The notes under the pieces were generated by a model. It did not search any database. It worked only from the letters and a program-made list of their open reading frames with translations, and was not told the origin of the DNA. DNA of 64,000 nucleotides, taken from positions 124,001 through 188,000 of the forward strand of contig JAOAPC010000008.1 of the NCBI GenBank assembly GCA_025462735.1, read 5' to 3'. This document shows, piece after piece, positions 5,621 to 6,403 of the stretch. This DNA is from Acidobacteriaceae bacterium (GTDB lineage Bacteria > Acidobacteriota > Terriglobia > Terriglobales > Acidobacteriaceae). The position numbers were made by a program, and so were the translations under genes. Each line of letters opens with the position of its first letter. Positions within the stretch are counted from its first letter, which is position 1.

Positions 5621-6403
5621 ATGACGACCTCACCTAGCATCTCGACGGCTCCAATCCAGAAAGGCCGCTGGAAGAAGATCACCGCTACAATTCTTGCGGC
5701 AATATTCGTGCTTTGGGTCGGACTTGTCACGTTTATCTGGCGCGCCATGCACAAGTCGCCAGAAGAGTTTGCACGTGTGATGTCCCATATGCCGTGGGAA
5801 ATTTTCCTGGTGGTTCCTTTTGAAACGCTGTGGACTCGGGCCCGCGCAGGCAGCTTGAATATCGGCGACCCTGCACCGGACTTTTCCCTGCTGAAGCTGG
5901 ACAAGACCGCTACCATTCATCTTTCTGAGGTCAACAAAACGCAGCCGGTTGTTATGGTATTCGGCAGCTATACTTGACCGCCGTTCCGGCGGGAGGTTCC
6001 CGCCCTCAACAAACTTTACGATCAGTATGGAAATCAGGTTGCTTTCCTGGTTGTGTACATTACCGAGGCACACCCCAGTGACATCTGGCAAATGGAGAGC
6101 AATATAAAAGATAAGGTCGTCTTTGCTACTCCGAAGAACGAGGAAGAGCGCGCGTTCATCGCCGGAGCGTGTGTGCGCAAGCTAGGCATCAAGTTCCCAG
6201 CCGTGCTCGATGAATTCGGCAACTCGACGGAGAATGCCTATACTGGCTGGCCCGACCGAATTTACTTGGTCGACCAAAATGGGCACGTCGCCTACAAAAG
6301 CAAGCCCGGCCCTTTCGGGTTCAAAGCAGAGGAATTGGCTGCCGCCCTAGCCAAACTACCGAAGTCGCGTGCCGCGCAGAGTGTCGACTCCGCCCAGAAG
6401 TGA
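5621..6403 (+). CDS. Iodothyronine-deiodinase-like selenoprotein (UGA at 5975-5977 read as Sec)
   Basis: Two open segments, 5621-5974 and 5978-6403, lie in the same frame and are split only by TGA at 5975-5977. Read through as selenocysteine they give one 260-residue protein: a membrane helix at about residues 20-42, a thioredoxin-fold N-part (GDPAPDFSLLKLD, about 86-98), the active site GSYTUPPFRRE with Sec119, then VVYITEAHPSDIWQ (Glu149, His151) and a C-terminal thioredoxin-fold half ending near GPFGFKAEELAAAL. The SCTUPPF-type active site and the YIxEAHxSD(G)W motif are hallmarks of animal iodothyronine deiodinases, so the homology spans the UGA on both sides. A hairpin fitting bacterial SECIS rules follows the UGA (5988-6004). 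The natural substrate in a bacterium is unknown; the fold suggests a reductive dehalogenase-like or peroxiredoxin-like thiol/selenol redox enzyme facing the periplasm. The alternative, a nonsense-mutated gene, is less likely because both halves are intact. Confidence 0.88.
5978..6004 (+). promoter_or_regulatory. Bacterial SECIS hairpin for Sec insertion at UGA 5975-5977
   Basis: Directly after the UGA, 5988-5994 (GGCGGGA) pairs perfectly with 5998-6004 (TCCCGCC), leaving a three-base apical loop GGT at 5995-5997. The loop begins 17 nucleotides after the UGA with G in its first two positions. Both facts agree with the published bacterial SECIS consensus (apical loop 16-37 nt after UGA, G in the first two loop positions, small loop). 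An alternative hairpin, CCGCC (5978-5982) with GGCGG (5988-5992), competes with the lower part. The sequence is translated as PPFRREVPA, so it is both coding and regulatory. It would be recognised by SelB. Confidence 0.75.

Follow-up and report, generated by a model that had tools for sequence, protein, structure and literature searches.

A very probable selenoprotein gene of the bacterial deiodinase-like family in an Acidobacteriaceae genome

The stretch of DNA analyzed here (the window; 64,000 nt) comes from an Acidobacteriaceae bacterium (assembly GCA_025462735.1, contig JAOAPC010000008.1, positions 124,001-188,000 of the forward strand). The gene considered here, dio, is flanked in the window by a metallophosphoesterase gene, which is divergent, and a gene for a GH31 glycosidase. 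Near the start of the window, positions 32-2737 hold three ORFs which, by eye, resemble those for a Tad/Flp pilus ATPase and for two membrane proteins. The features of dio are as follows:

5621..6403, + strand: deiodinase-like selenoprotein gene (dio; very probable assignment), stop included; 260 residues with selenocysteine (Sec) as residue 119; assigned from PF00837, conservation of the TGA and the match of an AlphaFold model to Dio2/Dio3
5678..5734, + strand: most hydrophobic 19 residues (20-38) of a predicted membrane helix, with a mean hydropathy of 2.37; the helix spans residues 16-43 in the model
5975..5977, + strand: in-frame TGA, inferred Sec codon (residue 119), from the reading frame, the TGA of relatives and the genomic Sec machinery
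5988..6004, + strand: putative bacterial SECIS hairpin of 17 nt, with a 7 bp stem and a 3-nt loop GGT (5995-5997), 10 nt past the TGA
6065..6082, + strand: EAHPSD motif, residues 149-154; E149, H151 and P152 kept in 80/80 named relatives
6170..6172, + strand: Cys184 codon, candidate resolving thiol (Sec+65), the sole other Cys of the protein

A preliminary description, made from the letters of the sequence, had read this locus as two in-frame segments split by a TGA at 5975, and the frame that starts with the ATG at 5621 does run through the TGA at 5975-5977 to the next stop, a TGA at 6401-6403. The two motifs it had pointed out are also in place, i.e., GSYT-U-PPF around the TGA (residue 119) and EAHPSD 30 residues downstream (residues 149-154). 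As it had anticipated for automatic pipelines, mechanical ORF calling yields two separate ORFs (5621-5977, 118 aa, and 6053-6403, 116 aa with a GTG start).

The codon at residue 119 was followed among relatives at three levels. A scan of named genomes gave 509 relatives, and the 80 nearest were kept as the best; located by a motif in which the site was left free, all 80 carry TGA at the Sec codon, a count that is silent on the other 429. These carriers include Edaphobacter lichenicola, Acidicapsa dinghuensis and Occallatibacter savannae, and the site reads U-P-P-F in 79/80, with a gap in the remaining one. Within the genus, a PF00837-type match was present in 8/8 genomes and contained an internal TGA in seven; a contig end lies 6 bases from the start of the eighth match, which probably begins downstream of the Sec site. 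The phylum sample comprised 396 genomes, of which 38 matched PF00837 at E<=1e-3 and 30 exceeded the cut-off; in 30 loci from this sample, the catalytic codon was TGA in 21, Cys in 7 and not resolved in 2. The first motif used for the phylum permitted only U or C and left 4/30 loci unparsed; an any-residue rescan of the four found Cys in L044 and U in L052, with L050 and L053 not resolved. The phylum and named sets overlap, as L035 and L115 are identical in DNA, as are L039 and L131. L052, a distant member of the phylum, has U-P-Y-C (around base 1644), i.e., a UxxC form. The search for homologues with U or Cys at residue 119, which had been suggested as a check, thus returned such homologues in both sets, and a different sense codon, which would have counted against Sec, was seen in none of the 80 named relatives.

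The genome from which the window was taken (4.36 Mb, 24 contigs, 97% complete) encodes all four components of Sec machinery that the preliminary description had proposed to look for, i.e., tRNA-Sec with anticodon UCA, selA, selB (374.7 bits) and selD (L020 and L021, G000:C18:75659-76648). This selD contains an internal TGA and is probably itself a selenoprotein gene. Two formate dehydrogenase genes with TGA are also present, as is an AhpD-like selenoprotein gene with the motif CPYULDSH (L157, G000:C17:86141-86704; 68% identical to the copy at locus L146), and Sec is therefore plausibly used in several proteins of this organism. Across the phylum sample, the selB cut-off was passed by 22/23 genomes with a TGA-type match above the PF00837 cut-off as compared to 232/373 others (Fisher p=5e-4; genomes tallied by hand, with a selB cut-off partly inferred from E-values).

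The hairpin downstream of the TGA (GGCGGGA-GGT-TCCCGCC, with G in the loop) was matched in stability by only 2 of 1000 synonymous recodings (p=0.003). At this site 78 of the 80 named relatives form a hairpin of <= -5 kcal/mol, and the two that miss this threshold are L114 and L125, the latter interrupted at the site; the loop lies at the identical offset in 74/80, at offset 10 in four and at offset 16 in one (of 79 with any hairpin). For the Sec forms from the phylum (n=20), the recoding test gave p<0.05 in 9 and not in 11 (binomial 2e-7), and L025, a Sec form, is without a hairpin by the definition of this test. For the Cys forms (n=6), such a hairpin is absent from five and weak in the sixth (p=0.281). 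Covariation was assessed on the 10 of 20 phylum Sec rows that share one register, with the other 10 left out; 84% of cells pair as compared to 73.5% in shuffles, and changes on both sides number six as compared to 1.7. An Rfam scan gave no SECIS family at dio, its sole match being a tRNA at 12053-12126; an Rfam model for this type of SECIS may not exist. The minimal SECIS of E. coli is likewise a 17-nt hairpin, located 11 nt from the UGA. As computed, a putative bacterial SECIS hairpin stands directly after the UGA, as in the bacterial deiodinase-like family.

An alternative to a Sec codon is that the TGA is a true stop, be it of a pseudogene, of the first of two genes or from a sequencing error. 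The bare sequence, with its two ORFs, would allow this reading. Against it, the TGA occupies the same codon in 80/80 named relatives with any residue allowed, and in 7/8 genomes of the genus, and it is followed by the hairpin. Moreover, of the codons that differ between the window and its relatives, the synonymous share is 58% downstream of the TGA (residues 120-246) as compared to 45% upstream of it (residues 76-118), a comparison that used 77/80 relatives and left out three; the downstream part is therefore under constraint at the protein level. We consider a true stop extremely improbable and reject pseudogene and sequencing error alike; an error at 5975-5977, which had been named as a way in which the reading could fail, is countered by the TGA of the 80 relatives. 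A general use of TGA as an amino-acid codon was also rejected, as, of 30 long open frames in the window that do not overlap, 10 end with TGA.

The read-through product matches PF00837 with 113.4 bits (E=1.4e-32; cut-off 27) over residues 41-245, i.e., across the TGA, so that the alignment of all 260 residues proposed earlier places it well above the family threshold; in the genome search the same profile gave 107.2 bits. PF00578 (AhpC-TSA; 42.9 bits, cut-off 26) and PF08534 (Redoxin) are above their cut-offs as well. The deiodinase family protein model NF038285 gave 193.7 bits over residues 80-244 and did not reach its cut-off of 250, with a match that begins at model position 177/347, and NF002854 (ResA), with 39.8 bits, likewise fell short of its cut-off of 170. 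Among PDB sequences, phmmer found mouse Dio3 (4tr3; 3.2e-22) and Dio2 (9h48; 5.2e-21), both spanning the TGA, and the next matches were two thioredoxin-like chains (7.7e-5 and 3.1e-4). An AlphaFold model built from 75 rows (mean pLDDT 93.7) has as its closest solved structures Dio2 (9h48; Z 22.4, rmsd 2.5 over 166) and Dio3 (4tr3; Z 21.6, rmsd 3.2 over 172), followed by structures of the ResA and AhpE types with Z of about 17-18. As far as sequence can establish it, the locus holds a Sec-encoding PF00837 gene with a hairpin after the UGA in a genome with complete Sec machinery, and 5621-6403 is very probably a selenoprotein gene of the bacterial deiodinase-like family.

In a tree of 36 rows, Dio2 and Dio3 sit on a branch of 2.79 at a fork with support 43/95, and a bacterial origin of the animal enzymes was accordingly not carried forward from this tree. 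In the same tree L139, from a contig titled Nevskia soli, pairs with the Acidobacteriia row L151 (98/89), which may reflect either transfer or an assembly that is mixed or wrongly labelled.

A hydrophobic N-terminal segment was found in 91 of the 95 rows (of 99) that were long enough to be tested, with start codons picked by rule, and among these 91 Lys and Arg are more frequent before than after the segment in 79, equally frequent in 7 and less frequent in 5. One N-terminal helix would thus hold the protein in the inner membrane, and the domain with the thioredoxin/peroxiredoxin fold probably lies outside the cytoplasm. Together with PF00837, the TGA of the relatives and the Sec machinery, this predicted anchor bears out the proposal of a membrane-anchored selenoprotein of the deiodinase family.

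The column of C184 is Cys in 80/80 named relatives and in 6/18 more distant Sec forms. Elsewhere among these 18, Cys occurs at Sec+48 in four and at Sec-2 in three, the latter being the place of a Cys in DIO1 and DIO3, and L052, which is outside the 18, has Cys at Sec+3. We infer that the Cys at Sec+65, Sec+48, Sec-2 and Sec+3 may share one resolving role.

We also compared the active site with that of the iodothyronine deiodinases, for which residues of the catalytic proton-relay network of Dio2 and Dio3 are named in PMC11592359. The Ser/Thr/Tyr/Glu/His hydrogen-bond network of the vertebrate enzymes is also found in the acidobacterial protein (S116/T118/Y146/E149/H151), and S116, T118, Y146, E149, H151 and W156 are kept in 80/80 named relatives. 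Conversely, the relay His (Dio2 His182, Dio3 His219) is replaced by P171, with Pro in 80/80, the substrate clamp (Dio2 Lys241, Dio3 Arg275) by P229, with Pro in 78/80 and Ala in two, and Dio2 Phe224/Dio3 Phe258 by P211 in 80/80. At this last site DIO1 likewise has Pro. A distal Cys is conserved in DIO1-3, and DIO1 is recycled via its proximal Cys124, according to PMC9141512. The distal column is F192 in the acidobacterial protein, with Cys in 0/80 and C184 eight residues upstream; the proximal site (DIO1 Cys124, DIO3 Cys168; Ala in DIO2) is Y117, with Tyr in 79/80 and Phe in 1/80 named relatives and Cys in 3/18 more distant Sec forms. The catalytic signature of vertebrate deiodinases that had been ascribed to the locus therefore stands for U-PPF, EAHPSD and PF00837, and does not extend to the relay His, which is Pro, or to the distal and proximal Cys sites. 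As the likeness is incomplete, the deiodinase name is no sure guide to iodine chemistry, and these alignments do not establish the acidobacterial protein as an iodothyronine deiodinase.

In the genome of the window, selA, selB, selD, tRNA-Sec and the AhpD-like gene are all distant from dio. Among the 80 named loci, many of which end early so that all counts are lower bounds, selB is nearby in at least 13, selA in at least 11, selD in at least 9 and tRNA-Sec in at least 7, and in at least 13/80 the end of a TGA-containing AhpD-like gene lies 336-363 nt ahead of the dio TGA. tRNA-Sec, selD, selA, selB, ahpD(Sec) and dio occur together in six loci (L130, L136, L137, L140, L146 and L149); at L146 (589-6699) a divergent tRNA-Sec, selD, selA, selB, the AhpD-like gene (CPYULDSH) and dio occupy approx. 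6 kb. At L134, from Edaphobacter lichenicola, tRNA-Sec and the three sel genes lie beside dio without ahpD; genes that adjoin dio at this locus (6716-11387) resemble, by eye, those of a formate dehydrogenase together with its iron-sulfur and membrane subunits. The flanks of more distant relatives (20 stretches, several ended by contig ends) contained no sel or AhpD-like gene, and clustering of Sec genes as a rule for the family was rejected. The clusters that part of the family does show speak for Sec and give no substrate, and the genes that adjoin dio are mostly lineage-specific and suggest none. AhpD-like relatives (E<=1e-30) occur in 8/396 phylum genomes, two of the eight with TGA. No export signal was seen by eye in the AhpD-like partner beside dio, which thus fits poorly with an outside-facing dio domain, and for its rarity in the phylum and this mismatch in topology the AhpD-like protein was dropped as a general reductant. 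Carriage on a plasmid was also set aside, as the two matches that tblastn returned were weak (30% and 25% identity).

On balance we lean, by a modest degree, towards a membrane-anchored Sec peroxidase or reductase resolved by C184, rather than a thyroid-hormone enzyme. The selenolate of Sec119 would be activated by the S116/T118/Y146/E149/H151 network and would attack an electrophile, for which a lipid or other organic hydroperoxide is the most likely candidate; resolution by Cys184 would then turn the oxidized selenium into a selenenyl-sulfide, to be recycled by an external thiol reductant. Overall, this would amount to a Sec peroxiredoxin/deiodinase half-reaction with a single resolving Cys. 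A peroxidase is suggested because PF00578 and PF08534 are above their cut-offs, because ResA and AhpE are the next structures after Dio, because C184 is kept in 80/80, and because the catalytic network named for Dio2 and Dio3 is kept save for one His; neither the sequence nor the model directly tells peroxides apart from other electrophiles.

Two other activities were weighed against this peroxidase or reductase. In a reductive dehalogenase, the selenolate would take the halogen off halogenated aromatics that occur naturally in soil, in the way vertebrate deiodinases remove iodine; Dio2 and Dio3 as closest solved structures and the six residues kept in 80/80 (S116 to W156) are in its favor, yet the relay His and the substrate clamp have both given way to Pro (P171 and P229), and no dehalogenation gene was recognized among the eight neighbor proteins scanned with profiles, so that we regard this activity as unlikely. 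We give similarly little credence to a TlpA/ResA-like thiol-disulfide oxidoreductase whose first Cys has been replaced by Sec. The predicted membrane anchor, the ResA types that come next in the structure list (Z of about 18) and the NF002854 score, itself under its cut-off, would agree with such an enzyme; however, its scores and Z values are lower than those of the Dio entries, and with U-P-P-F in 79/80 (one gap) the UxxC pair is absent, U-P-Y-C in L052 being the one exception noted.

Beyond the peroxidase or reductase itself, a wider scheme can be put forward as a speculation that we hold to be improbable as a whole. In some Acidobacteria dio would end a compact selenium module and form one detoxification pathway with the AhpD-like protein; the family would have kept Sec while its resolving Cys moved (Sec+65, Sec+48, Sec-2, Sec+3); and the animal deiodinases would be specialized descendants of bacterial Sec peroxidases. 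The possible role of Cys184 offers a defined handle on ancestral deiodinase chemistry, for which Edaphobacter lichenicola, Acidicapsa dinghuensis and Occallatibacter savannae, with Sec machinery genes nearby, would be organisms for testing.

Deiodinase-like selenoproteins of bacteria were described from the Sargasso Sea in 2005, with a likely non-deiodinase and possibly redox function (PMC1088965, whose reference list includes a paper on the minimal E. coli SECIS element). Thus, of the suggestion of a deiodinase-like selenoprotein in a soil-type bacterium, the selenoprotein holds and the family is not new. Later surveys list such proteins (PMC2398784, the GOS survey of 2008; PMC9312934; PMC13188914; PMC9402790) and assign them no function in the parts drawn on here, nor does a 2026 review give a role in the part where it lists them. 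The 2005 and 2008 sets are marine, and the word stem Acidobacteri is absent from the reviews PMC9312934 and PMC13188914. A functional study of a bacterial member was not found in the accessible literature on bacterial deiodinases and on prokaryotic or Acidobacteria selenoproteins, subscription journals being mostly outside its scope. A passage of PMC12521424 reports that deiodinase-like enzymes of gut bacteria act on T4, with the gene unnamed there, and a passage on deep-Sep (PMC12013277) gives three known selenoprotein genes, also unnamed, for Occallatibacter riparius, so that counts for Acidobacteriota may already include the deiodinase-like family. The distribution in Acidobacteriota, the selD-selA-selB-ahpD-dio cluster and the conserved C184 do not appear in the passages cited from these papers.

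With the bacterial deiodinase-like selenoproteins, the acidobacterial gene shares PF00837, the Sec/Cys site and a putative SECIS after the UGA. UxxC is given as the motif of this family in PMC9312934 and PMC13188914, whereas the acidobacterial protein has U-P-P-F and a distant Cys184; as the 2008 GOS table prints "-" for the family motif (PMC2398784), UxxC was not taken as defining. The thioredoxin fold is also common to the peroxiredoxins (AhpE, Bcp) and to ResA/TlpA, all of which score lower than Dio. The peroxiredoxins and ResA/TlpA are not known to carry the EAHPSD motif. The vertebrate DIO enzymes have in common with the acidobacterial protein the FGSxTUPPF and EAHPSDxW motifs, an N-terminal anchor and the fold.
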